A stretch of DNA of 64,000 nt from Methanomassiliicoccales archaeon (GCA_026394375.1 JAPKYJ010000013.1:128089-192088), one strand, 5' to 3'; counted from the stretch's first letter, positions 9,864 to 42,146 are shown. Made by a program: numbers and translations. Notes: generated by a model not told the origin, from the sequence alone.

Positions 9864-9997
9864 AATGCGCGGGCAGGTCATCGATGAGGTCCTGCTAATC
9901 AAATTCCGGGGGCTCCGACCGTCAGAGCCATTAGGATACGTATCGCCTCCATCATCAGCGGGAGGGGTCCACCCCTGACGAACCTCCTCCATCTAGA

Positions 9998-10028
9998 CCA
10001 CACCCAGATGGCAATTCTTCTGGTGTGG
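9998..10028 (-). terminator. Hairpin downstream of the Hef-like helicase
   Basis: CCACACCCAG pairs with CTGGTGTGG (one bulged base) around a 12-base loop, 30 bases beyond the helicase stop. A second small inverted repeat, AGGGGT-CC-ACCCCT, lies at 9963-9976. Termination is inferred. The rest of 9864-9997 shows no gene. Confidence 0.4.
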
Positions 10029-10057: not shown

Positions 10058-11659
10058 CTAGAAATCGAAGATCTGCTTTTGACCTTTCTTGGGGGGGCTC
10101 TTGGGCTGCGGTTCCGGTTCTGCCTCTAGTCTCTGCTCGATGCGCATCTTGCGCTGGATGTTCACTATCTCCTTCTTCATGGCGCGCTCCTTGTTCACGG
10201 CCGCGTAGAGGGATGCTTCATCCCGGGTGCCTCTCGTGACCAGGACCGCCACCCGCCCAGAGCGTCTCCTCCCCGTCCGGCCGCGTCTCTGGATAGAACG
10301 TATCTCAGAGGCCACCGGCTCATAGAAGATGACCAGGTCGGTGCTGGCCACGTCCAAGCCTTCCTCTCCCACGCTGGTGGCCACAAGCACATTGAATTGG
10401 CCGTTGCGGAACCGTTCCAGCACGCTCACTTGCTCCTTCTGCTTGAGCCCCCGTTCCCCGCCGCTTCTGTCCGCCTGGCCCACGAGCTTGGCCACCCTTG
10501 CCCCCTCGATCTCGGCAAGTTTGGTGGCGACCAATTCGCACGTATCTCTGTAATGAGTGAAGACGATGACCTTCGATTCAGGCTTCTCATGCACCAGGCG
10601 GGATACGATGGTCATCACCCGGTTGAGCTTGGGATGCTCGAACTTCATGGCCTGGACAAGTTCCAGCGCCTTGATGAACTCGGGCGCTTTGACGATGGTG
10701 CGGGCCGCCTTCGTGCCTTCATCCGACTCCGCCTCACGCTGCAGCTTCTCCAGGAAGAGGCGGAGAGCCGTGACTCCTTGGGTCTCGCCCATTTCCAGAG
10801 CATGCCCCACCTTCAGCGCCATGGCCTGCACGCTCATGGCCGAGAACAGGTTCCGATGGCGCTCGCCGCTCCTGTGGCGCCTCTGCAGGGTCTGCCCGAC
10901 CTCAAGCAGGTACTTGGTGTTCGCCGGACGCTTGGAGTCCATCACGCCCAGACGGACCAGTTCTTTGATGTAGGATTCCTGCATTCCTTTGAGGAGGAAG
11001 ATGACCCGTTTCATCTCCTGGGGCACGTCCACCTCGATCCAATCCATCTGGATATCGTGCATGTATTTCGCAACATCTGGATCGTCCTCTGACCGGGCCT
11101 CGATGCTCTCGATGCCCAGATGATCGCGGACCTCCTTGATCTTGGAGCTGCTGGCGCCGGGGGAGGCGGTCATGCCCAGAACCAGCCCATCGTAATGCTT
11201 GTACTCCTCCCCGATGGCCACGTATGCGTAGTCTCCGACGGCTCGATGCGCTTCATCGAAGACTATGAGCTTCACGTCGCGCAAGGAATAGTTCTCTCTT
11301 CTAATGTCGTTGGAGACCACCTGAGGGGTGGAGGCGATGACGTCGTTCTCCAAGAAGACCAGGGCCCGCTCGTCCGGCGCCACCTCGCCGGTCATGACGC
11401 CCACCGTCCTATCCACGAGAAGCTCGCGGAGCGAGCTTGCGTGCTGCTCCACCAGTGGCTTCGTTGGGGCTAGGAACAGCACCTTTCCTTTCTTTCCTTG
11501 GAGCACATCCGCTATGACCAGGAGGGCGATGATGGTCTTCCCCAAGCCAGTGGGCAGCACCAGAAGGGTGGACGTGCATGTCGCCGATTTGGCCAGCGCG
11601 ATCTGGTATTCTCGTTCCTCGACGCTGTCCTTCTTGATCAGAGGATGGTCGACGTACAC
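10058..11659 (-). CDS. Hef-type superfamily 2 helicase, nuclease domain absent
   Basis: 533 residues. Domain 1 has Walker A PTGLGKT, motif Ia APTKPLVEQH, DEAH box FDEAHRA and motif III TASPG. A helical insert follows, then domain 2 with VFTHYRDTC, TSVGEEGLDVA and motif VI QRRGRTGR. This is the helicase half of archaeal Hef/FANCM, which acts at stalled forks and branched DNA. Full-length Hef also carries an XPF-type ERCC4 nuclease and HhH domain; here the protein ends about 30 residues after the helicase core. The last seven residues, QKQIFDF, resemble a PCNA-interacting peptide. The start is GTG at 11659 with no clear ribosome site. Confidence 0.9.
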   Translation of the reverse strand: MYVDHPLIKKDSVEEREYQIALAKSATCTSTLLVLPTGLGKTIIALLVIADVLQGKKGKVLFLAPTKPLVEQHASSLRELLVDRTVGVMTGEVAPDERALVFLENDVIASTPQVVSNDIRRENYSLRDVKLIVFDEAHRAVGDYAYVAIGEEYKHYDGLVLGMTASPGASSSKIKEVRDHLGIESIEARSEDDPDVAKYMHDIQMDWIEVDVPQEMKRVIFLLKGMQESYIKELVRLGVMDSKRPANTKYLLEVGQTLQRRHRSGERHRNLFSAMSVQAMALKVGHALEMGETQGVTALRLFLEKLQREAESDEGTKAARTIVKAPEFIKALELVQAMKFEHPKLNRVMTIVSRLVHEKPESKVIVFTHYRDTCELVATKLAEIEGARVAKLVGQADRSGGERGLKQKEQVSVLERFRNGQFNVLVATSVGEEGLDVASTDLVIFYEPVASEIRSIQRRGRTGRRRSGRVAVLVTRGTRDEASLYAAVNKERAMKKEIVNIQRKMRIEQRLEAEPEPQPKSPPKKGQKQIFDF

Positions 11660-32145: not shown

Positions 32146-32166
32146 AGTTGGATGATACATCCAACT
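32146..32166 (+). promoter_or_regulatory. Palindromic operator, copy 1 (btuF)
   Basis: A perfect inverted repeat: left arm AGTTGGATG, spacer ATA, right arm CATCCAACT. The same element, 18 of 21 bases identical, precedes cobT (40959-40979), and a third copy, 15 of 21 identical, sits at the start of the phosphoglycerate-mutase-like gene (42126-42146). A TATA box lies about 22 bases upstream of it. Confidence 0.75.
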
Positions 32167-32217
32167 ATGCTGGGCTGAGCTTAAGCATCACTAGTAGGAC
32201 ATCCTGGAGGGAGGAGA

Positions 32218-33312
32218 TTGGAATCATCGAAGCGTATGATCATCATCGCCATCGCGGTCGTGGGCATCCTTGTGACCGCGGGCTTGGTCGTGCTCGTGGG
32301 CAACAAGCCTGCGTCGGGAGAGAACTTCAACGTCACCATGACCGACGCTCTGGGACGCAAGGTCAACCTGACGCACCAGCCGGAGCGCATCGTCTCCTGT
32401 GCTCCTGAGATCACCGAGCTGGTCTATGCCATGGGGCAGGGAAGCAAGCTGGTCGGCGTGACGGGGTATTGTGACTACCCTCAGGATGTAGTGGACAGAA
32501 AGGCGGCCCAGACCGTCAAGGATATCGGGGGATTCTCCACGCCCAAGGCAGAGGAGATCGTCGACCTCACCCCTGACCTGGTGCTCGTGACCGCCTCGAT
32601 GTCGCAGCACGTCGAACTGGCGAATCAGCTTGAGGGTCTCGGTCTGTCGGTCGTCGCCCTTTACGAGGGAGCGACGATCAACCGCGTCTACGACAATATC
32701 CGCCTGGTCGGTTCCGCTCTTAAGATGGAAGGACAGGCGGCGAGCCTGGTGGGCGAGATGCAGAAGAAGATCACCGCCATCCAGGGGAAGATCGACTGGG
32801 CCAAGCCTCAGGCGAAGGTGTTCTTTGCGGTTTGGCTGGAACCAATCTACACTGCCGGTGCTGGAACGTTCATAGGCGAAGTGGTGCAGTTCGCCGGAGG
32901 CGCGAACGCGATGGCCTCCTACCCCGGCTGGGCAATGGTCTCCAAGGAGGACGTGATCGCGGCTTCACCAGACATCATCTTCGTTAGCGGCACCATGATG
33001 GAGATGACCCCCGAACAGATCATCACCAGCATGGAGACCGACCCAGTGTGGAGCATGACCCCCGCGGTGCAGAACCACAAGGTGTTCGTGGTGACGAATC
33101 AGGGTGAGAACGTGTTCGTCCGACAGAGCGTGCGCATCGTGGAGGCGATCCAGCTCATGGCGGAGGTCCTGCAGCCCTCGGCGTTCGGGGCGAACGTGCC
33201 CAACATCATAGGGAGCGAGTATCAGGATTACCTAACACCCCTAACCTCTTCCAGCGGCCCGGCTGCCGATGTCCAATCGGTAGCTCTGGCCGTTCCGATC
33301 AAATGGGAGTGA
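32218..33312 (+). CDS. btuF: Corrinoid ABC transporter substrate-binding protein BtuF
   Basis: 364 residues. An N-terminal hydrophobic segment (MIIIAIAVVGILVTAGLVVLV) anchors or exports it; the mature part is a periplasmic-binding-protein type III fold with ERIVSCAPEITELVYAMGQG, VGVTGYCDYP and IGGFSTPKAEEIVDLTPDLVL. The family binds vitamin B12, haem or iron siderophores; the neighbours (cobD, cbiB, cbiS, cobS, cobY) make corrinoids the likely ligand. The TTG start at 32218 is preferred because GGAGG lies seven bases upstream; the later ATG at 32236 would be too far from it. First gene of an eight-gene operon under the palindromic operator. Confidence 0.9.
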   Translation: MESSKRMIIIAIAVVGILVTAGLVVLVGNKPASGENFNVTMTDALGRKVNLTHQPERIVSCAPEITELVYAMGQGSKLVGVTGYCDYPQDVVDRKAAQTVKDIGGFSTPKAEEIVDLTPDLVLVTASMSQHVELANQLEGLGLSVVALYEGATINRVYDNIRLVGSALKMEGQAASLVGEMQKKITAIQGKIDWAKPQAKVFFAVWLEPIYTAGAGTFIGEVVQFAGGANAMASYPGWAMVSKEDVIAASPDIIFVSGTMMEMTPEQIITSMETDPVWSMTPAVQNHKVFVVTNQGENVFVRQSVRIVEAIQLMAEVLQPSAFGANVPNIIGSEYQDYLTPLTSSSGPAADVQSVALAVPIKWE

Positions 33313-33339
33313 GACGTTTCGGATGGCCGGGGAGAACCG

Positions 33340-34386
33340 ATGAACGGATCGACCGTCAAGAGCAGCAAAATGAAACTGGCCCTCATCCTCGTAGTGGGGT
33401 CGGTGACGCTCTTCCTTCTTTTCATTCTTTCACTAGTTGTCGGTTCAGTGGACATGAGCTTCACTGACGCATTGGGGGCGCTGTGGGGTTACATCACCAA
33501 GTTGGGGGATGTCAGTCGGCTCACTCCTGACGAGAAGATAGTTGGTCTATTGCGCCTTCCGCGAGCGGTGGCCGTGGTGGGAGTGGGCATCGCCCTTTCC
33601 GTCGCCGGTGCGGTCATGCAGGCGCTCATACGCAATCCGCTGGTCGACCCGTACATCACCGGCGTCTCCTCAGGAGCGGCGGCGGGGGCGGCCGTGGTCA
33701 TGCTCATGGGCATAACGGTGACAGGGGTGGGGCTGTTCGCCGTTCCGGTGGCCGCGTTCATCGGAGCGATCGGCGCCTTTTTCTTCACATTGCTGCTGGC
33801 CGAAGCCTCTGGAGGTAGAGCGCTAAACTACGTGCTGGCGGGCATCGTCACCGGCACCGCTCTCTCCTCGCTCACCTCGCTCATCATGACCGTCAGCGGC
33901 AACCAACTTCACGGTATCGTCTTCTGGATGTTCGGCAGCTTCGCCACCATCACCACGGACAAGGCCCTGCTCATCATCGTGCCCACCATCTTCCTCTGTC
34001 TCATCGTGCTGGTCATGGCCCGGGAGCTTAACGTCATCCTGCTAGGGCATGAGCAGGCCTGGCAGCTGGGCGTGGATTCGCGCTCCTTCAAACGCCTCAT
34101 GATGGTGCTCACCTCCATCCTCACTTCCATCGCGGTGGCGTTCACAGGCATCATCGGCTTCCTCGGACTGATCGTCCCGCACATCGGTCGCATCCTGGTC
34201 GGAGGGGACCACCGGCTCCTGCTCCCAGCGAGCATGATATTGGGCGCGAACGTGCTGCTGGTGGCGGACCTCGTCTCTCGCACGGCCATGCAGGGCGAGC
34301 TGCCCGTCGGGGCGATCATCTCTCTCATCGGGGCGCCGTTCTTCGGCTACCTGCTGGTCAGGAGGGGGCGGGATTATGCCGGATGA
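33340..34386 (+). CDS. btuC: Corrinoid ABC transporter permease BtuC
   Basis: 348 residues of FecCD-family permease with about ten membrane helices. Conserved elements are LRLPRAVAVVGVGIALSVAGAVMQALIRNPLVDPYITGVSSGAAAGA, read across 180-190 bases near residue 75-125, and GFLGLIVPHIGRILVGGDHR near residue 280. It forms the membrane channel with BtuD. GGGGAG lies six bases before the ATG. It overlaps btuD by 11 bases. Confidence 0.93.
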   Translation: MNGSTVKSSKMKLALILVVGSVTLFLLFILSLVVGSVDMSFTDALGALWGYITKLGDVSRLTPDEKIVGLLRLPRAVAVVGVGIALSVAGAVMQALIRNPLVDPYITGVSSGAAAGAAVVMLMGITVTGVGLFAVPVAAFIGAIGAFFFTLLLAEASGGRALNYVLAGIVTGTALSSLTSLIMTVSGNQLHGIVFWMFGSFATITTDKALLIIVPTIFLCLIVLVMARELNVILLGHEQAWQLGVDSRSFKRLMMVLTSILTSIAVAFTGIIGFLGLIVPHIGRILVGGDHRLLLPASMILGANVLLVADLVSRTAMQGELPVGAIISLIGAPFFGYLLVRRGRDYAG

Positions 34387-35164
34387 TAAGATGGTCATCC
34401 GCATCGAGGGATTGGAGTTCCGATACGACGCCTCCAGGACCTTGGATGGCGTGGCGTTCGAATCCAACCGAGGGGAGTTCCTCGGTCTCATTGGACCAAA
34501 CGGTTCAGGAAAGACCACGCTCTTGCGCTGCATAAACGGCCTGCTCAAAGCGGACGGAGGGGTCGTCTACCTCGAAGGAAGAAAAGTGAGCGAGATGAAG
34601 CTGGCGGAGATCGCCAGGGTATGCGCTGGCGTCCCCACCGACATCCCGGAGGATTTCAACATCACCGTCGAGGACTACGTCTATCTGGGGCGCTATCCTC
34701 ACGTGCAAGGTCTGTGGTGGGAAGCGGAGAAGGACGAAAAGCAGGTGGACGAGGCCATCGCCTCTTTCGAGCTGGGGAAGTTGCGCAAGCGCAAGCTCTT
34801 CGAGTTGAGCAGCGGCGAGAAGGAGAGGGTGATGTTGGCCAAGGCCACCGTCCAGGAACCGAAGGTCATGCTGGTGGACGAGCCCTCGGCGCATCTGGAC
34901 CTCAAGTACAAGCTGGAGGTCATGGAGTTCCTGCACGAGCTCTCTCGGAAAGGCATAACGGTCATCGTGGCCTCTCACGACATCAACCTCCTGGTGCGCT
35001 ACTGCGACCGGGTGCTCATCATGAAAGAGGGGAAGGTGGTCAAGTGCGGCAAGCCAGTGGACGTCATGACGGAGCAGCTCATCCGCGAAGTCTACGAGGT
35101 GGAGGCAGAGGTGCTGCATCATTCTGGCGAAATATTCGCCTTGGCGAAAAGGCCTCTGAGGTGA
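34376..35164 (+). CDS. btuD: Corrinoid ABC transporter ATPase BtuD
   Basis: 262 residues. Walker A GPNGSGKTT (about 39-47), Q-loop region around ARVCAGVPTDIPEDFNITVEDYV, ABC signature LSSGEKERVMLAKA and Walker B VMLVDEPSAHLDL, then the switch His in VIVASHDIN. The signature has Ser-Ser-Gly-Glu in place of the more common Ser-Gly-Gly-Gln, an allowed variant. It powers the BtuCDF importer. ATG overlaps the end of btuC. Confidence 0.93.
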   Translation: MPDDKMVIRIEGLEFRYDASRTLDGVAFESNRGEFLGLIGPNGSGKTTLLRCINGLLKADGGVVYLEGRKVSEMKLAEIARVCAGVPTDIPEDFNITVEDYVYLGRYPHVQGLWWEAEKDEKQVDEAIASFELGKLRKRKLFELSSGEKERVMLAKATVQEPKVMLVDEPSAHLDLKYKLEVMEFLHELSRKGITVIVASHDINLLVRYCDRVLIMKEGKVVKCGKPVDVMTEQLIREVYEVEAEVLHHSGEIFALAKRPLR

Positions 35165-35207
35165 TGGCACGGACCTGACGAAACGCATGCGGCAAGAGGT
35201 GGCGAGG

Positions 35208-36293
35208 ATGGAGCGCCCGCAGCACGGCGGTGACGGCTGGCGCTACAGCGGGCTGGAGGACTTCAGTGCCAACCTGAATCCTTTCGGTCCGCCTCCCGGT
35301 CTGCAGGAAATGCTGCTTGCGGCGTCCAAGCAGCTCGATCACTATCCCGATGACTCGAGCGACCGCTTCCGCAGGGCGGTGGCCGATCATCATTCGCTCG
35401 TCAAAGAGAACGTAGTGCCAGGGGTCGGTTCCTCCGAGATCATCCGCCTCTTTCCCGAGGTCTTTCTGGAGCGGGGGGACAAGGTGCTCATGCCCCGGCC
35501 CACCTTCGGCGAGTATGCGTTCGCTTGCAGGTTCATGGGAGCGGAGGTGGTGCCCTTCGCCCTTCCTGAAGAGGATGCTTTCCGAGTGGACGTGGAATCG
35601 CTCTTGGGTGAGCTGGACCGCTCTTTCAAGGCGGTCTATCTGTGCAATCCCAACAACCCCACGGGCATGGTCTGCCCGCGTCGCCAGGTGCTCGAGCTCC
35701 TGCAGGAATGCGAGCGCCTGAACGTCATCGTTTTCTTGGACGAGACGCTGCTGGAGCTCCTTCCCGACGAGGAACAGATCAGCCTCTCGTCGGAAGTAGA
35801 GGCTCACGACAACCTGCTCATCATCCGCTCGCTGACCAAGTCCTTCGCCATTCCCGGGCTGAGGGTAGGATACGGTTTGGCAGGGAAGGGCATGGCCGCC
35901 TGCCTGGAGAGGGGAAGGCAGACCTGGAACTTGGGACAGATCGAGCAGGAGGTCTCCGCTTCGCTGATCTCGGACCATTTCCATTACGTACGGAAAGGGG
36001 CTCAGGTGCTGGATGACGAGAAGCGGAGGGTGCACCAGGAGCTCGGCCAGTTCCGATCGCTCACGGTCCATATGCCTGACGGCTTCTTCTTTTTCCTCGA
36101 TCTTCGACCCATCGAGATGACTGGAGCTAGATTCCGGGAGAGGATGATGGAGCAAGGCGTGCTAGTCCGCGATTGCCGCTCCTTCGGTCCACCTTTCGAA
36201 AGTTTCGTCCGCTTCTGCGTCAAGACCCCAGAGAAGGACGCGCTCTTGCTCAAGGCGTTCCGTGCGGTCCTGGGCAGGGAGGGCAGGACGTGA
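35208..36293 (+). CDS. cobD: L-threonine-O-3-phosphate decarboxylase-like aminotransferase CobD
   Basis: 361 residues of a HisC/CobD-type class I PLP enzyme. It begins MERPQHGGDGWRY and DFSANLNPFGPP, and has VGSSEIIRLFPE, YLCNPNNPTG, FLDETLLEL and SLTKSFAIPGLRVGY with PLP lysine 211. The substrate, L-threonine phosphate giving aminopropanol phosphate for the nucleotide loop, is inferred from the operon; HisC activity is the alternative. The ATG at 35187 is in frame, but GAGGTGG is ideally spaced before ATG 35208 and homologues begin near the HGG motif. Its TGA overlaps the GTG of cbiB. Confidence 0.88.
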   Translation: MERPQHGGDGWRYSGLEDFSANLNPFGPPPGLQEMLLAASKQLDHYPDDSSDRFRRAVADHHSLVKENVVPGVGSSEIIRLFPEVFLERGDKVLMPRPTFGEYAFACRFMGAEVVPFALPEEDAFRVDVESLLGELDRSFKAVYLCNPNNPTGMVCPRRQVLELLQECERLNVIVFLDETLLELLPDEEQISLSSEVEAHDNLLIIRSLTKSFAIPGLRVGYGLAGKGMAACLERGRQTWNLGQIEQEVSASLISDHFHYVRKGAQVLDDEKRRVHQELGQFRSLTVHMPDGFFFFLDLRPIEMTGARFRERMMEQGVLVRDCRSFGPPFESFVRFCVKTPEKDALLLKAFRAVLGREGRT

Positions 36294-37294
36294 ACTTCGA
36301 TCCGATCATCCTCTATGCACTAGCGTTCGCGGTCGCCGCGGTCATCTTGGACCTTCTGCTGGGGGAACCGCCGAACGCCCTCCATCCAGTGGTGTGGATG
36401 GGCAAGCTCATCGGTCTCTTGGATGGAAGCATCAAGCGCCATGGTCGGGTGAGGAGGGAACGTGCCATGGGCGTGCTCGTGGCCTTGATCCCCATCCTGG
36501 TCTTCGTGCTCGGCCTCACGGTATTGATCGCGGTCCTACACAGCCTCTTCGGGATGCTGGTCTGGGCCATCGTATGCGCATTGCTGTTCAAGACGCTCTT
36601 CGCCATGAAGGCCTTGGAGCGTCATGTGTTCCCGGTCATGGAGGCGCTGGAGAAAGGTGATCTGGAAGAAGCTAGGAAGAGGGTCTCTATGGTGGTTAGT
36701 CGAGACACTAGCACATTGGACCAGGGGCACGTGGCCTCCTGCGCGGTGGAGACCGTGGCCGAGAACACCATCGACAGTATTTTCTCTCCTTTCCTCTTCT
36801 TCGGTCTGGCTGGGGTTCCGGGAGTGGTGTTCTACCGCGTCTCCAACACCCTCGATGCCATGGTCGGCTACTTGAGCGAGAAGCACCGCAACGTCGGCTG
36901 GTTCTCCGCCAAGCTGGACGACGCCACCAATTGGATCGGGGCAAGGCTTTCCCTGCCGTTCATACTGCTTGCGCTGAAGATAATGGGCAAGGACTGGAGA
37001 AAAGCCTACCGGACGGCGTTGCGGGATCATACCAAGACCGCATCACCGAACAAGGGCTGGCCCATGGCCGCATTCGCCGGAGGCTTGGGGATCCGCATGG
37101 AGAAGATCGGCCACTACACCTTTGGCGATGGGCTTCTGCCCGAGGACCCCCGCTACATCCGGGAGACGGTGAAGCTCGCCAAAGGCTCGTCCCTGCTGTT
37201 CTTCTTCCTGGTGGCGTTGCCGTTGTTCCTGGTATTGGGGCTGCAGGTCCAGCTTTTATTTGAGCAAGTCATTACGCATCTGTTGTTCGGGTGA
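36290..37294 (+). CDS. cbiB: Adenosylcobinamide-phosphate synthase CbiB
   Basis: 334 residues with several membrane helices. Family motifs are LDLLLGEPPNALHPVVWMGKLI near the N-terminus, VSRDTSTLD, VETVAENTIDSIFSPFLFF, YRVSNTLDAMVGYLSEK and DHTKTASPNKGWPMAAFAG. It joins adenosylcobyric acid to aminopropanol or its phosphate, the step after CobD. GTG start overlapping the cobD stop as GTGA. It is coupled downstream to cbiS. Confidence 0.93.
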   Translation: MNFDPIILYALAFAVAAVILDLLLGEPPNALHPVVWMGKLIGLLDGSIKRHGRVRRERAMGVLVALIPILVFVLGLTVLIAVLHSLFGMLVWAIVCALLFKTLFAMKALERHVFPVMEALEKGDLEEARKRVSMVVSRDTSTLDQGHVASCAVETVAENTIDSIFSPFLFFGLAGVPGVVFYRVSNTLDAMVGYLSEKHRNVGWFSAKLDDATNWIGARLSLPFILLALKIMGKDWRKAYRTALRDHTKTASPNKGWPMAAFAGGLGIRMEKIGHYTFGDGLLPEDPRYIRETVKLAKGSSLLFFFLVALPLFLVLGLQVQLLFEQVITHLLFG

Positions 37295-37299
37295 GAGAG

Positions 37300-38427
37300 A
37301 TGAGAAAGACGTTCAAACCGAAGGTGGAGGTGAAGGCCCTGAACGGGGGGAATGGAGCCATTGTTCACTTCCCAGAGAAGATGAAAGTGCTCGCATCCAC
37401 CCTGCGCAACGGCGGGTTCGTGGAAGCGGACACGGTGCTCATCATCCAAGTGGAGCGCGGCTACGACGGTCAGGACCCAGACGAGGACATGCGCAAGACC
37501 TGCCATGGGCTGGGGTTGAAGGAGGACACGGTATGCTTCATGACCGCGGCGGACGTGAAGAAGGTCATCTCCACCACCGAGGAGGAGTACCATGGAGTCA
37601 AAGCGTCGGTCGTAGCCACCGCCGGCGTCGTCAACGCAGTCATGGCCGGGGAACTGGTGCCGGATGCGATCCTGGCCACCCTGACCAAGCCGGGCACCAT
37701 CAACATCGTGGCCGCGGTCAACGTCCCTCTTGAGCCGGCCGGTCTGGCGAACGCCATCATCACCATCACCGAAGCAAAGACCGCCGCCATGATCGATTGC
37801 GGCGTGAAGGGTACGGGGACCACGAGCGACGCCGTCGCCGTGGCATGCCCGAAAGGCAACGGAAGCCACTACGCCGGCACGGCCACCGACGTCGGCATCG
37901 CCCTGTCCAGGGCGGTGCGCAAGGCGGTGGGGCAGAGCATCCGCAAGTGGTACAACGGGACGGCTCCGCTGGACATGCTCTCCCGCCTGCAAGAGAAAGG
38001 AATCAGTCTCGATGATCTCTGGAACGCGGCCAAGGAACTCTACTATTCCAACCCTCAGTGGGAGACCGAGATGATCCACCAGCGTTTCATGGCGCACATC
38101 AAGCTTCTGAACGACGACGTCAACGTGAACGCCATGGTGCAGGCGGCGCTGCTGATGGAGGAGCAAGGGGGTCGGGACAACATCCACGGCCTGGGGAAGG
38201 GCGAGTTCGCAAAGGACCCGGTGCACCTGCTGGCGGACGAGCTCATGGGCATCGCCTTGGCGGAGTACATCTCGGGTACTAGGGGGCTCTTCGAGTACAC
38301 CCGCTACGATCGCAAGAAGCCGGGCATCATCGGCGAGCTCGGTCCCTTCATGGACGATATCGTGGGCGCGTTGGTCGGAGGAACGATGTCCAAGGTCTAC
38401 ACCGACCTTCTGGGGGCGGGAAGATAG
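37300..38427 (+). CDS. cbiS: Bifunctional adenosylcobinamide amidohydrolase / alpha-ribazole phosphatase CbiS
   Basis: 375 residues, a fusion. Residues 1-215 are CbiZ-type amidohydrolase (VVATAGVVNAVMAGE, TITEAKTAAMIDCGVKGTGTTSDAVAVAC, HYAGTATDVGIALSRAV), which removes aminopropanol from cobinamides so they can be rebuilt. Residues 225-375 are PgpA/CobZ-like (LLMEEQGGRDNIHGLGKGEF, DPVHLLADELMGIALAEYISGTRGLFEYTRYDRKKPG), which dephosphorylates alpha-ribazole phosphate or cobalamin phosphate. This architecture is known from CbiS of Methanopyrus. A GTG at 37291 overlaps the cbiB stop, but GGTGA is well spaced before ATG 37300. Confidence 0.9.
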   Translation: MRKTFKPKVEVKALNGGNGAIVHFPEKMKVLASTLRNGGFVEADTVLIIQVERGYDGQDPDEDMRKTCHGLGLKEDTVCFMTAADVKKVISTTEEEYHGVKASVVATAGVVNAVMAGELVPDAILATLTKPGTINIVAAVNVPLEPAGLANAIITITEAKTAAMIDCGVKGTGTTSDAVAVACPKGNGSHYAGTATDVGIALSRAVRKAVGQSIRKWYNGTAPLDMLSRLQEKGISLDDLWNAAKELYYSNPQWETEMIHQRFMAHIKLLNDDVNVNAMVQAALLMEEQGGRDNIHGLGKGEFAKDPVHLLADELMGIALAEYISGTRGLFEYTRYDRKKPGIIGELGPFMDDIVGALVGGTMSKVYTDLLGAGR

Positions 38428-38429
38428 GG

Positions 38430-39233
38430 GTGCTCTCCATCCTCAAGGCGCAGTTCTCCCTCTTCACCATCATTCCAGCCGATGCCAGCGGTCAAGAGGT
38501 CGATGCTTTGGCGCATCGCTTCTGGTCGGTGCCTATCGTCGGATTGTTCTTCGGTTGCGTTGCTGGCTTGGTATTCCTCTTGGCCGATCAGGTGTTCTCT
38601 TCGCTTGTCGCCGCCCTTCTGGCACTGTTGTTCGTGCACGGCCTCAACCGCTTCCTGCACATCGACGGCCTGAGCGATCTAGGCGATGGCCTGCTGGCCG
38701 GCGGAAGAAAGGAGAAGAAGCTGGCGGCCATGAAAGACAGCCGATCCGGCGCTGGTGGAATTGCCTACCTCTTCTTCTTCGAATCGCTCTCCGTGCTCGC
38801 CCTAGCCATGTTCGCCAACCAGCCCCTGGCCTTGCTGTTCCTCATCCCCCTGATGGCGGAGGTGCTGGCGAAGAACGCTCTGGTGGCATGCGCCTCCGTC
38901 GGGAAGCCATCGGAAGGCATGGGGGGCATCTTCGTTCGCAACGCCAAGGGTGGCACGGCCCTCGCCTCTGCCGTCCTGTCGTTCTTCATCATTTTCGTCC
39001 TCGGCTATTTCCTCAAGCCCTACTCCGGATGGAGCGACATCTGGGTAGTGGTCATCGGCCTTTCCTTGGTGCTCGTCAGCTCCCTGGTCGGAGCGGTGCT
39101 GGCGAAGCTTGCCATGCGCTCCTTCGGCATCGTGAACGGAGACGTGCTGGGAGCGACGAACGAGATCGCTCGACCGATAGTGCTGATGACGCTGGTATTG
39201 GTGATCAGATGCCTCGAGTCAGTGCGGTGGTGA
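38430..39233 (+). CDS. cobS: Adenosylcobinamide-GDP ribazoletransferase (cobalamin synthase) CobS
   Basis: 267 residues, a multi-helix membrane protein. The signature FLHIDGLSDLGDGLLAG followed by KKLAAMKDSRSGAGGIA (about 76-115) marks CobS. It joins activated adenosylcobinamide-GDP with alpha-ribazole or its phosphate at the membrane. GTG start two bases after the cbiS stop. It overlaps cobY by 25 bases. Confidence 0.93.
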   Translation: MLSILKAQFSLFTIIPADASGQEVDALAHRFWSVPIVGLFFGCVAGLVFLLADQVFSSLVAALLALLFVHGLNRFLHIDGLSDLGDGLLAGGRKEKKLAAMKDSRSGAGGIAYLFFFESLSVLALAMFANQPLALLFLIPLMAEVLAKNALVACASVGKPSEGMGGIFVRNAKGGTALASAVLSFFIIFVLGYFLKPYSGWSDIWVVVIGLSLVLVSSLVGAVLAKLAMRSFGIVNGDVLGATNEIARPIVLMTLVLVIRCLESVRW

Positions 39234-39835
39234 CCGCTGGCGGCAGGGGAACGAGGATAGGCGAGCTGAAGCAAGAGAAACCGCTGATCGAGATCCTTGA
39301 CAAGCCGATGGTCGATCATGTGCTGGAGGCGCTCAAAGGCTCGAAGGAGATCTCGGAGATCGTGGTCTCGGTGAGCCAGAACACGCCCCGCACGGAGAAG
39401 CACGTCCAATCCCAGGGATACAGGTTCGTGCGCACCCCCGGCGAAGGCTATGTCCAGGACCTTCGCTATGCCATGTATTTGCTCTCCACTCCCTACATAC
39501 TGGTGGTGCCAGCGGACATGCCTCTCCTGCGGACATCCTCCATCGACGCCGTGGTCACGGCCTTCTATCGGTCCAAGAAATCATCCATTGTGGTCGGGGT
39601 GCCGGTGGAGGTGTTTCAGAACATGAACGCGGAGCCGACCTTCACCATGGAGATGAACGGCCAGATGGCCGTTCCCTGTGGCATCAGCATCGTGGACCGG
39701 GACATGATGCTCCGCAACGAGTACCTTGATGAGGCATACATGCTCACGGAGCTGGAGGATTTCGCCGTGAACATCAACACCGTCGCCAATCTGAGGTTCG
39801 CGGAGAAGGTCCTGAAGAAAAGGAAGAAAGTCTAA
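39209..39835 (+). CDS. cobY: Adenosylcobinamide-phosphate guanylyltransferase CobY
   Basis: 208 residues. The nucleotidyltransferase loop is AVVTAGGRGTRIGELKQEKPLIEI (about 6-29), followed by DKPMVDHVLEAL, LVVPADMPLL and a C-terminal FAVNINTVANL. This is the archaeal replacement for bacterial CobU, making adenosylcobinamide-GDP from the phosphate and GTP. It begins inside the end of cobS and its stop shares CTAA with the convergent cobT stop. Confidence 0.92.
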   Translation: MPRVSAVVTAGGRGTRIGELKQEKPLIEILDKPMVDHVLEALKGSKEISEIVVSVSQNTPRTEKHVQSQGYRFVRTPGEGYVQDLRYAMYLLSTPYILVVPADMPLLRTSSIDAVVTAFYRSKKSSIVVGVPVEVFQNMNAEPTFTMEMNGQMAVPCGISIVDRDMMLRNEYLDEAYMLTELEDFAVNINTVANLRFAEKVLKKRKKV

Positions 39836-40941
39836 GCCTTCCTGGCCATCAACCTCTCGTAGTTCTCCTCGATCTCCTGCAGCAGGGCGGCCGCGTCCAC
39901 TCGTCCTCTGGTAGTAAGCATGGCAGCGATGGACGAGCCACCGGCCCCCACGCCCTCCTTGACCAGGCCGGTCTCGTAGATGCGCAGCCCTTCATGTTTC
40001 GAATGGCCGAAATCCAGATCGGCCGCGATCACGGGCACCGGTGCGATCTGCTGCACCAGGCTAACGATGCTCGAGCCCTTGTCCTGCACGATCCATCTGG
40101 TGGTGCCGATGGCCACGTTACCGAGAACGCCCTTATCCATGCCTTTGACCACCGCCAGAACGGCGGCCATCTGGGTGCCGCCGGCCATGATGACGGGAAC
40201 GGAGCGTGCCGCTCCTACGACCACACCTGCCGCAGCAGGGATCATCGGATCGCCCATGGCCGCCAGGGCAGCCATCGGGTCCTTCCGCATCTGCTCCATG
40301 GTCAAGGGCGCGTTCTTCAATCCTTCGCGCACGACCTGCGCTTTGAGAGAATGGGGGTTCTCCAGAAGGCTGCTGGACACTTTGCCTTCCGCATCATAGC
40401 CCATGGCCGCCAATACGCCTAACGCCGTGGTGGTTCCCCCGGCGATGGATTCCCCCACGACCAAGTAATCGGAGATCCTGGCCAGGGCCTTGCCCACTTC
40501 CACAGCGTGGTCGAAGACCTTGCGTGGATCGTCCAATGCCTTTCCCGTGCGAATGTCCTTGCCCGGAGTTCCGCCAAGCTCGAAGTAGGGGGAGTTCGGT
40601 CTGACATTCACACCTCCGTTCACTGCGAACACTGGCATGGAGGTCAGCTTGATGGCGGACATGGTGATGAGACCAGGTGTAGGGATGCCGTTGGGCGTCA
40701 CTGGCACTCCATTGATGCACTTGCACCAGCCGAAATAGAGCAGTTCGATGTCTGCGGCGGGGGTGTAGTCAGTGATCTGGGGGTTCGCTCCCGCTGCAGA
40801 GATGCCAGGGATCTTGCCTGTCTCTGTGTTGCCGATGATGCAGACGTAGGTGGGCGCCTTGCCCAGCAGCTTGCGCACGAACTTCTTCCCCTTCATCTCC
40901 TCGTGGCTGAAGATGATGTCCTTGGGAATCGTTGTCGCCAT
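39832..40941 (-). CDS. cobT: Nicotinate-nucleotide-dimethylbenzimidazole phosphoribosyltransferase CobT (archaeal type)
   Basis: 369 residues of the archaeal CobT/UPF0284 family: FVCIIGNTETGKIPGISAAGANP-like N-terminus (CIIGNTETG), TPGLITMSAIKL, GESIAGGTTTALGVLAAMG, MAGGTQMAAVLAVV and GAGGSSIAAML. It makes alpha-ribazole phosphate, the lower-ligand half of the CobS reaction. GGGAG precedes the ATG. The operator and TATA box directly upstream link it to the convergent btuF operon. It shares its stop with cobY on the opposite strand. Confidence 0.9.
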   Translation of the reverse strand: MATTIPKDIIFSHEEMKGKKFVRKLLGKAPTYVCIIGNTETGKIPGISAAGANPQITDYTPAADIELLYFGWCKCINGVPVTPNGIPTPGLITMSAIKLTSMPVFAVNGGVNVRPNSPYFELGGTPGKDIRTGKALDDPRKVFDHAVEVGKALARISDYLVVGESIAGGTTTALGVLAAMGYDAEGKVSSSLLENPHSLKAQVVREGLKNAPLTMEQMRKDPMAALAAMGDPMIPAAAGVVVGAARSVPVIMAGGTQMAAVLAVVKGMDKGVLGNVAIGTTRWIVQDKGSSIVSLVQQIAPVPVIAADLDFGHSKHEGLRIYETGLVKEGVGAGGSSIAAMLTTRGRVDAAALLQEIEENYERLMARKA

Positions 40942-40958
40942 AACTCTCCCTCTTCGTC

Positions 40959-40979
40959 AGTTGGATTATTCATCCAATT
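40959..40979 (-). promoter_or_regulatory. Palindromic operator, copy 2 (cobT)
   Basis: On the plus strand: AGTTGGATT, ATT, CATCCAATT. It matches 18 of 21 bases of copy 1. It lies 18-38 bases before the cobT ATG and about 13-41 bases downstream of the TATA box at 40993-41000, covering the expected transcription start. Confidence 0.72.
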
Positions 40980-40992
40980 GAAGGATTGGCGG

Positions 40993-41000
40993 CTATATAA
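40993..41000 (-). promoter_or_regulatory. TATA box of cobT
   Basis: Reads TTATATAG on the minus strand. Transcription would start near 40970, inside operator copy 2. Confidence 0.6.
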
Positions 41001-41084
41001 TGATTGAGCTGAAGTGATGCATCTGGCTTGAGAAATGTGGCAACATCGGAATCGCACCGTCACCGTAATGTCGAATCCTCCGCC

Positions 41085-42128
41085 CTACTGAAGGATGGCG
41101 TCGAGCAGTCCGGGCAGCGGAACGAAATCCTCCTCGATCTCGCAGAACCTCTTCCCTGCCCTTCCTTTGGTGATGGCCGGACCGACCGCGAACGGCACCT
41201 TCATGATCAAATGCTCGCCGCTCAGTGAAGAGGTGCCATGATCGATGACGAAAGCCACTTTGTGCCCCTGCAGCTTCTTCTTGTTCGAGCTGAGCAACCG
41301 ATCCACGTCCAACAGCATCTCCACTTTCTTCGACGGCATCCGTTTGTGGCTGATGTCGTCCGTCTCTTCGATGTGCCAGAGCACATTGCCCTCCGCCAGA
41401 CGAGGCAGCGATCGCTTCAGCCCCTCGGCATAATTGCTCACTTCGTGATTCTCTAGGCCGAAATAAGAGGCCACGCCGAGCACGGACGGGCTCTTGGAGA
41501 AGAACACCATCCCTTTGCTGGATGGCAGTGGACCTCGATCCCCTTTCTTGATGAGCTTCCCTCCTCCCCAAGGCATGACCACCAATCCGCCGTTGTAAGA
41601 GCCCATTTCCTGGATGAATGGCGTTAGCTCCCCGAACTCCCTTCCTTTGATGCTGACCGGCGTGGGCGGGGCGGGGAGCTCCTCCACTCTATCGGAGCGG
41701 ACCTTGAGGATGCCCTTGCCTTGGCAATAGAAGAAGAGCTGCGGATGAAGGGAGGAAATGGACTTGGAATGCTTCTTGGCCAGGAGACGCAGCTTCGCCT
41801 CGTCCTCGCACATCATCTGGTATTCCCAAGCCACTTTTCCGTCATGCAGCTTGGCCGGGCTGAGGCGATAGGCGACCTCTCCTTCCTCCAGCGGGACGCC
41901 ATAGCCCATGGCCTCGATGACCCCTCTCGGCACGTTCAGAGGGCGTCCCCCGATGAACTCCAGCATGAAGAGGTGGGTGTAGCCCCGAGCGTCGGTGCAT
42001 CCGAATCTGCCGCTGGATGCGACGGAATCGATGAAGCGCTTGTCCGTCGCCTCCAGTGGCGTGCGGCTCCCTAGCTCCTCGATGCGGTCGTCCGCGGCGC
42101 CATCGAGAAGAACGATCAGCGTGCTCAT
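41085..42128 (-). CDS. Alkaline-phosphatase-superfamily protein resembling cofactor-independent phosphoglycerate mutase (ApgM)
   Basis: 347 residues. It begins STLIVLLDGAADDRIEELGSRTPLEAT, the ApgM signature, and later has GGGKLIKKGDR, LGVASYFGLEN, WHIEETDDISHKR and FVIDHGTSS with probable metal ligands (His-Glu-Glu-Thr-Asp-Asp; Asp-His-Gly). Family enzymes are usually about 400 residues, so this member is short and divergent. It could be a true phosphoglycerate mutase, but the corrinoid operator overlapping its start codon suggests a phosphatase or mutase linked to cobalamin metabolism. Alpha-ribazole phosphatase is already supplied by CbiS, so the substrate is open. The frame opens further upstream; ATG 42128 fits the family. 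Confidence 0.75.
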   Translation of the reverse strand: MSTLIVLLDGAADDRIEELGSRTPLEATDKRFIDSVASSGRFGCTDARGYTHLFMLEFIGGRPLNVPRGVIEAMGYGVPLEEGEVAYRLSPAKLHDGKVAWEYQMMCEDEAKLRLLAKKHSKSISSLHPQLFFYCQGKGILKVRSDRVEELPAPPTPVSIKGREFGELTPFIQEMGSYNGGLVVMPWGGGKLIKKGDRGPLPSSKGMVFFSKSPSVLGVASYFGLENHEVSNYAEGLKRSLPRLAEGNVLWHIEETDDISHKRMPSKKVEMLLDVDRLLSSNKKKLQGHKVAFVIDHGTSSLSGEHLIMKVPFAVGPAITKGRAGKRFCEIEEDFVPLPGLLDAILQ

Positions 42129-42146
42129 TGGATGACTCGTCCAACC
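42126..42146 (-). promoter_or_regulatory. Palindromic operator, copy 3 (ApgM-like gene)
   Basis: Core TTGGATGACTCGTCCAAC, 15 of 21 positions identical to copy 1. On the coding strand its last three bases are the ATG start codon, so a bound protein would sit on the start of a leaderless message. TATA-like TTCAATAC lies at 42164-42171. Confidence 0.55.

Follow-up and report, generated by a model that had tools for sequence, protein, structure and literature searches.

In bacteria, genes of the kinds treated here are mostly controlled by cobalamin riboswitches. To our knowledge, little is on record about the control of B12 supply in archaea, and methyl-reducing methanogens need corrinoids for methane production. 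The present analysis concerns a 64,000-nucleotide stretch of the genome of a Methanomassiliicoccales archaeon (hereafter the window; JAPKYJ010000013.1:128089-192088), where a 21-base palindromic element with the core TTGGAT-N5-ATCCAA stands in front of genes of a corrinoid locus. Unlike the RNA-based bacterial systems, the window gave no Rfam family at gathering score, cobalamin riboswitches included; a riboswitch was thus rejected, in agreement with a preliminary description of this DNA made from the sequence alone.

Among archaea, a cobalamin regulon has been predicted in Pyrococcus furiosus (RegPrecise 'CblrR'), the factor being unknown (2023 study, PMC10746257). As in the present case, archaeal cobalamin genes are placed there under a predicted protein regulator, the two organisms differing by phylum; that both represent the same system is a lead. 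The PH0730 family is counted among the transcription factors of P. furiosus (PMC6316755). Its namesake in Pyrococcus horikoshii (PDB 2p8t, annotated as hypothetical protein; Pfam PH0730-like_N and DUF4443) matches both forms of the candidate regulator proposed below in sequence and the long form in predicted fold, and the literature found records neither a function nor an operator for it. TrmB of Halobacterium salinarum (VNG1451C) is also reported to affect cobalamin biosynthesis (PMC4158304, PMC10817205), but it responds to sugar and governs more than 100 genes as a global regulator, and is not a dedicated B12 operator system. In the open-access literature searched, no earlier description of the present regulon was found, nor any paper naming DUF4443 or DUF2111.

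A palindromic element ahead of corrinoid genes

Three 21-base copies of the element (Table 1) were recovered exactly at the coordinates and with the identities given in the preliminary description. Searching the window with AGTTGGATGNNNCATCCAACT at up to 3 mismatches returned sites 1 and 2 only (0.03 matches expected in shuffled sequence; two matches per window reached in 0 of 100 shuffles), while site 3 was matched only with the looser core TTGGATGACTCGTCCAA at 1 mismatch. The cobT site is exact at -31 to -42 in five of five relatives whose CobT proteins are 61-71% identical, a count that is biased as these cobT/ApgM-like loci were chosen as site carriers. A search upstream of the ApgM-like orthologues in the same relatives gave nothing comparable except a site with 2 mismatches in G003, and the role of the third site as an operator is doubtful. 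The earlier proposal that one operator links three transcription units thus stands for btuF and cobT, where the sites are strong, but is doubtful for the ApgM-like gene, whose site is weaker and poorly conserved.

The source genome (G000, 1.73 Mb) contains 8 sites matching TTGGATGNNNCATCCAA with at most 1 mismatch, against 0 for the reversed pattern used as control, and exact TTGGATDNNNHATCCAA occurs 4 times where about 0.06 is expected by chance. The element is therefore not randomly distributed in the genome, as the preliminary description required. The preliminary description had found no other copy in the intergenic regions that it scanned; copies do exist outside the window, which were not visible to it. 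Elsewhere in the genome, an exact copy precedes a secreted beta-propeller protein (L017), full or near copies precede an APC-type permease (L016) and cbiP/cobQ (L018), two tandem copies lie in front of a second btuF (L019) and a variant copy in front of a corrinoid protein (L022). The motif was detected in 58 of 61 related genomes of the order with 1-18 sites each, the reversed control being non-zero in 2 of them, and it precedes btuF and cobT orthologues in relatives, the conservation that had been predicted. In a draw of 200 genomes from the class, sites with at most 1 mismatch were present in 32 of the 33 genomes of the order vs 37 of the 167 others. The palindrome almost certainly marks a corrinoid regulon in the Methanomassiliicoccales.

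Target genes were collected from ten genomes, clustered and named by NCBIfam and Pfam. A corrinoid or related tetrapyrrole or uptake gene was found within 300 bp downstream of 43 of the 73 exact sites; this is a low estimate, since the gene caller at times took antisense frames (behind one such site, L085 of G049, a direct search revealed cobT). The targets comprise BtuF (in all 10 genomes), precorrin-2 dehydrogenase, CbiT, CobT, CobN with its ATPase and CobQ, and further CbiA, CbiC, CobA, BtuC, corrinoid proteins and F430 genes. Control of corrinoid uptake and salvage, as first suggested, is supported by this list and yet too narrow, for the regulon also extends to de novo synthesis, to cobalt insertion and to additional transporters.

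Most of the 67 exact sites with an assigned gene lie 0-45 bp upstream of the start codon; position -12, where the ATG falls within the site, is probably a start-codon artefact. The A+T content reaches its maximum 25-35 bp upstream of the site, where TATA-like words are also most frequent. This placement would fit a repressor acting at transcription start, so that the repressor geometry suggested earlier for the first two sites finds support of a statistical kind only.

DUF4443 proteins as candidate regulators

A gene for a winged-helix protein with a DUF4443 domain (Pfam PF14544) tracks with the motif and lies outside the window, both as anticipated for the regulator. DUF4443 was found over cut-off in 33 of 33 genomes of the order and in 22 of the 167 others. 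Among genomes from beyond the order, 19 of the 22 with DUF4443 have an exact site vs 6 of the 145 without it (Fisher p = 5e-17); when only sites outside genes are counted, the figures are 17 of 22 vs 2 of 145. Because the genomes are related, the family-level count is the safer figure: exact sites occur in 7 of 7 families with DUF4443 vs 3 of 19 without (p = 2e-4). Among the six site-bearing genomes devoid of DUF4443, four have the site inside unrelated genes, and another (G117, 69% complete) comes from a DUF4443-positive family and has its site before a transporter-type gene.

The matches were of a long form (winged helix, DUF4443 and DUF2111), present in the order, and of a short form (helix-turn-helix, HTH, and DUF4443), present both there and in families beyond it. 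Of 45 short DUF4443 genes, 11 from six families are followed by an exact site at a distance of 21-315 bp from the stop codon, most often with a beta-propeller-type secreted protein next in line. Nine of these sites were obtained by script and two by reading; where the script had taken a neighbouring open reading frame (ORF), as happened in some loci, the locus was read by eye. This adjacency is the best reason for preferring the short form over the long one. In most loci with a readable neighbour, an archaeal S-adenosylmethionine synthetase gene adjoins the short gene. G036 has eight DUF4443 matches (contig C1), with several short ones clustered near 1.82-1.85 Mb, where most relatives have two.

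Both forms match PH0730 over the HTH and DUF4443 regions (E = 2.7e-14 for the short and 6.7e-17 for the long form). The long form scores 101 bits for PF14544 against a cut-off of 27, and the PH0730-like winged-helix N-terminus (PF22167) is also over cut-off. Its fold, predicted from a 28-sequence alignment (mean predicted local distance difference test score 81, predicted template modelling (TM) score 0.57), matches that of PH0730 with a target TM of 0.76. The predicted winged helix is nearly superimposable on that of operator-bound CggR, a regulator of the SorC/DeoR type (7oyk; 0.8 A over 64 residues). In contrast, the overall likeness of the predicted fold to IclR repressors, and to full-length CggR, is weak (TM about 0.2), and sensor domains and targets differ.

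From these data the following mechanism is proposed. A PH0730/DUF4443-type winged-helix protein, whose gene lies elsewhere in the genome next to that for S-adenosylmethionine synthetase, would as a dimer bind TTGGAT-N5-ATCCAA where transcription begins or slightly downstream. Under ample supply of corrinoid, or of an adenosyl compound, this protein would repress the genes for corrinoid uptake and de novo synthesis, for cobalt insertion and for salvage. We give this mechanism as a whole a probability of about 0.74. On co-occurrence and gene order, it is likely that a DUF4443 protein binds the palindrome, and the short form in particular is probably the binder, being the best choice at present.

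Several observations weigh against this proposal. About 30 of the 73 sites in the ten genomes have neighbours of no assigned corrinoid role. What is conserved beside the short gene is S-adenosylmethionine synthetase rather than a corrinoid gene, and in the source genome the short gene has no adjoining site. No B12-binding domain was found in the protein with DUF4443 and DUF2111, which thus lacks the mark of a CarH-type regulator. Finally, two DUF4443 paralogues are present in most genomes of the order, so the binder could be either of them, and one genome (G027, 99% complete, 7 contigs) combines three exact TTGGAT sites with the long paralogue only.

That the long paralogue, not the short one, is the corrinoid regulator would account for G027 and agree with the presence of the long form in most genomes of the order; the long form also looks autoregulated, as among the 79 named promoters of its gene in the Methanomassiliicoccales 59 carry a match above 99% of the null. 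This reading is nonetheless unlikely, because the promoters of the long gene and of mcrB bear ATGGAT-N5-ATCCAT and not TTGGAT-N5-ATCCAA, because exact TTGGAT sites number 11 in G029 and 10 in G032, both of them 99% complete and without a long form, and because all DUF4443 matches found beyond the order are of the short form, in genomes with TTGGAT sites. Another, unlinked transcription factor might bind the sites, DUF4443 merely co-occurring with them. The absence of a nearby site from 34 of the 45 short genes and a co-occurrence that follows lineages would agree with it, but the recurrence of adjacency in six families and the significant association at family level make it an improbable explanation. 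No other HTH gene was noticed to recur beside the sites except Fur, in two genomes.

A Fur-family protein encoded beside cbiP/cobQ and cbiM could be imagined to bind the site and to sense cobalt, since in G000 and G049 (L018, L081) a site separates its gene from the divergently oriented cobQ. The Fur gene of G000 has, however, its own and different Fur-like palindrome upstream, ATTATCATGTAAATGATAAC, and Fur stands beside a site in just 2 of 10 genomes; on both grounds Fur was rejected as the regulator, and the chance that it acts here is very small. The region L018:3990-4130 displays the ATTATCATGTAAATGATAAC palindrome at the Fur gene divergent from cbiP/cobQ, followed by cbiM/cbiQ/cbiO-like genes, and probably belongs to a separate metal regulon. 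An RNA hairpin or attenuator, to which the short loop between seven-base arms and the location in or close to 5' leaders might point, is hardly credible given the empty Rfam scan of the window, the conservation across families of the arm letters and not just of their pairing, and the finding that sites can stand between divergent genes or form tandem and overlapping copies.

The long paralogue, a variant palindrome and mcr

A weaker site in G000, less than 15 bp upstream of the long gene, gave the lead to this paralogue, which is divergent there from AtwA and McrC; the genome also carries mcrA, mcrB and AtwA. Eighty named loci with a long DUF4443 protein were obtained, mostly titled Methanomassiliicoccales or its families, the rest under broader archaeal names. 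The ATGGAT-N5-ATCCAT variant of the long gene's own promoter is clearest in the family of the window. In the same family it precedes mcrB in 9 of 9 tested genomes, among them G015, and one of the other eight has a single mismatch. G025 has it before mcrB too, as does G054 with one mismatch. The variant was missing upstream of mcrB in 16 other family f2 genomes and likewise in G026, G029 and G032. The variant is a candidate operator for control of the mcr operon.

In L302 it occupies 9996-10012, upstream of mcrB at 10160, and it also occurs in L300, L304, L305 and L306; the mcr-upstream variant is often an overlapping ATGGATGGATTATCCATCCAT. The corrinoid methyl carrier is preceded by paired variant copies in G001 and G007. 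Paired or single variant sites at such carriers lie at L301:3793-3840, L303:3781-3828 and L022:3598.

Comparison of the recognition helices by eye showed no obvious residue distinguishing the short from the long form, GEGSxR being present in both. It is tentatively suggested that the two paralogues might be repressors that share out the methyl-reducing lifestyle, the short one acting on corrinoid supply and the long one on itself and, in some lineages, on the mcr operon and a corrinoid methyl carrier, their operators being one base pair apart, and that the Pyrococcus regulator might belong to the same family.

The window locus and sites beyond the order

According to Pfam and NCBIfam, the genes flanking the sites form a corrinoid locus extending from a btuF-like to an ApgM-like gene (Table 1). 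The start codon of the btuF-like gene is uncertain, its ORF opening at 32218. The cobY-like part is the C-terminal half of its ORF, with the true start near 39220. An ApgM-like gene lies directly upstream of cobT in G000, G043 and G049. The idea that this enzyme substitutes for an alpha-ribazole phosphatase was weakened, as CbiS in the window already supplies a CobZ domain.

Table 1. Coordinates of operator sites and genes of the corrinoid locus in the window
Feature	Position	Strand	Remarks
Operator site 1, AGTTGGATGATACATCCAACT	32146..32166		5' of btuF; core also exact before btuF homologues of relatives
btuF-like corrinoid-binding protein	32254..33312	+	Pfam Peripla_BP_2; NCBIfam BtuF model below cut-off
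btuC-like permease	33340..34386	+	Pfam FecCD; NCBIfam BtuC best match, below cut-off
btuD-like ATPase	34376..35164	+	NCBIfam corrinoid/F420-0 ABC ATPase models, below cut-off
cobD-like threonine-phosphate decarboxylase / HisC-type aminotransferase	35187..36293	+	NCBIfam TIGR01140 best match, below cut-off
cbiB	36173..37294	+	NCBIfam TIGR00380 over cut-off; ORF limits, true start later
cbiS, adenosylcobinamide hydrolase and CobZ-type alpha-ribazole phosphatase	37291..38427	+	NCBIfam NF038002 over cut-off
cobS	38430..39233	+	NCBIfam TIGR00317 over cut-off
cobY-like guanylyltransferase	38555..39835	+	NCBIfam NF045495, residues 224-421, below cut-off
cobT, archaeal nicotinate mononucleotide (NaMN)-dependent phosphoribosyltransferase	39832..40941	-	NCBIfam TIGR00303 over cut-off
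Operator site 2, AGTTGGATTATTCATCCAATT	40959..40979		between TATATA element and cobT (minus strand); 18/21 identity to site 1
ApgM-like metalloenzyme	41085..42128	-	upstream of cobT; Pfam Metalloenzyme/PhosphMutase; apgM far below cut-off
Possible operator site 3, CATTGGATGACTCGTCCAACC	42126..42146		over ApgM-like start codon; 15/21 identity; weaker

Two further kinds of genes were noticed behind sites. A zinc-type dehydrogenase is found there in five genomes (L161, L072, L094, L170, L177), followed in G043 by a glycosyltransferase-family-3 protein. In G003 a site is followed by a CbpB-family radical SAM peptide maturase (TIGR04163), and a similar gene lies beside a site in G043 (L163, L071).

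Beyond the order, sites precede beta-propeller or DUF4430-type secreted proteins, or BtuF/BtuC, and in several loci components of energy-coupling factor (ECF) transporters come after the gene of the secreted protein. Beta-propeller/PKD or DUF4430-type secreted proteins, some followed by ECF components or DUF6580, were seen in L148, L151-L154, L178 and L185-L189.

Taken together, the analysis provides a concrete operator, a list of targets and a candidate protein family, DUF4443, so that the question of which protein regulates archaeal cobalamin genes becomes directly testable. The beta-propeller and DUF4430-type proteins that are linked to the site, together with the ECF components, are marked as likely candidates for corrinoid uptake systems, and the variant sites offer a lead on the control of mcr itself.

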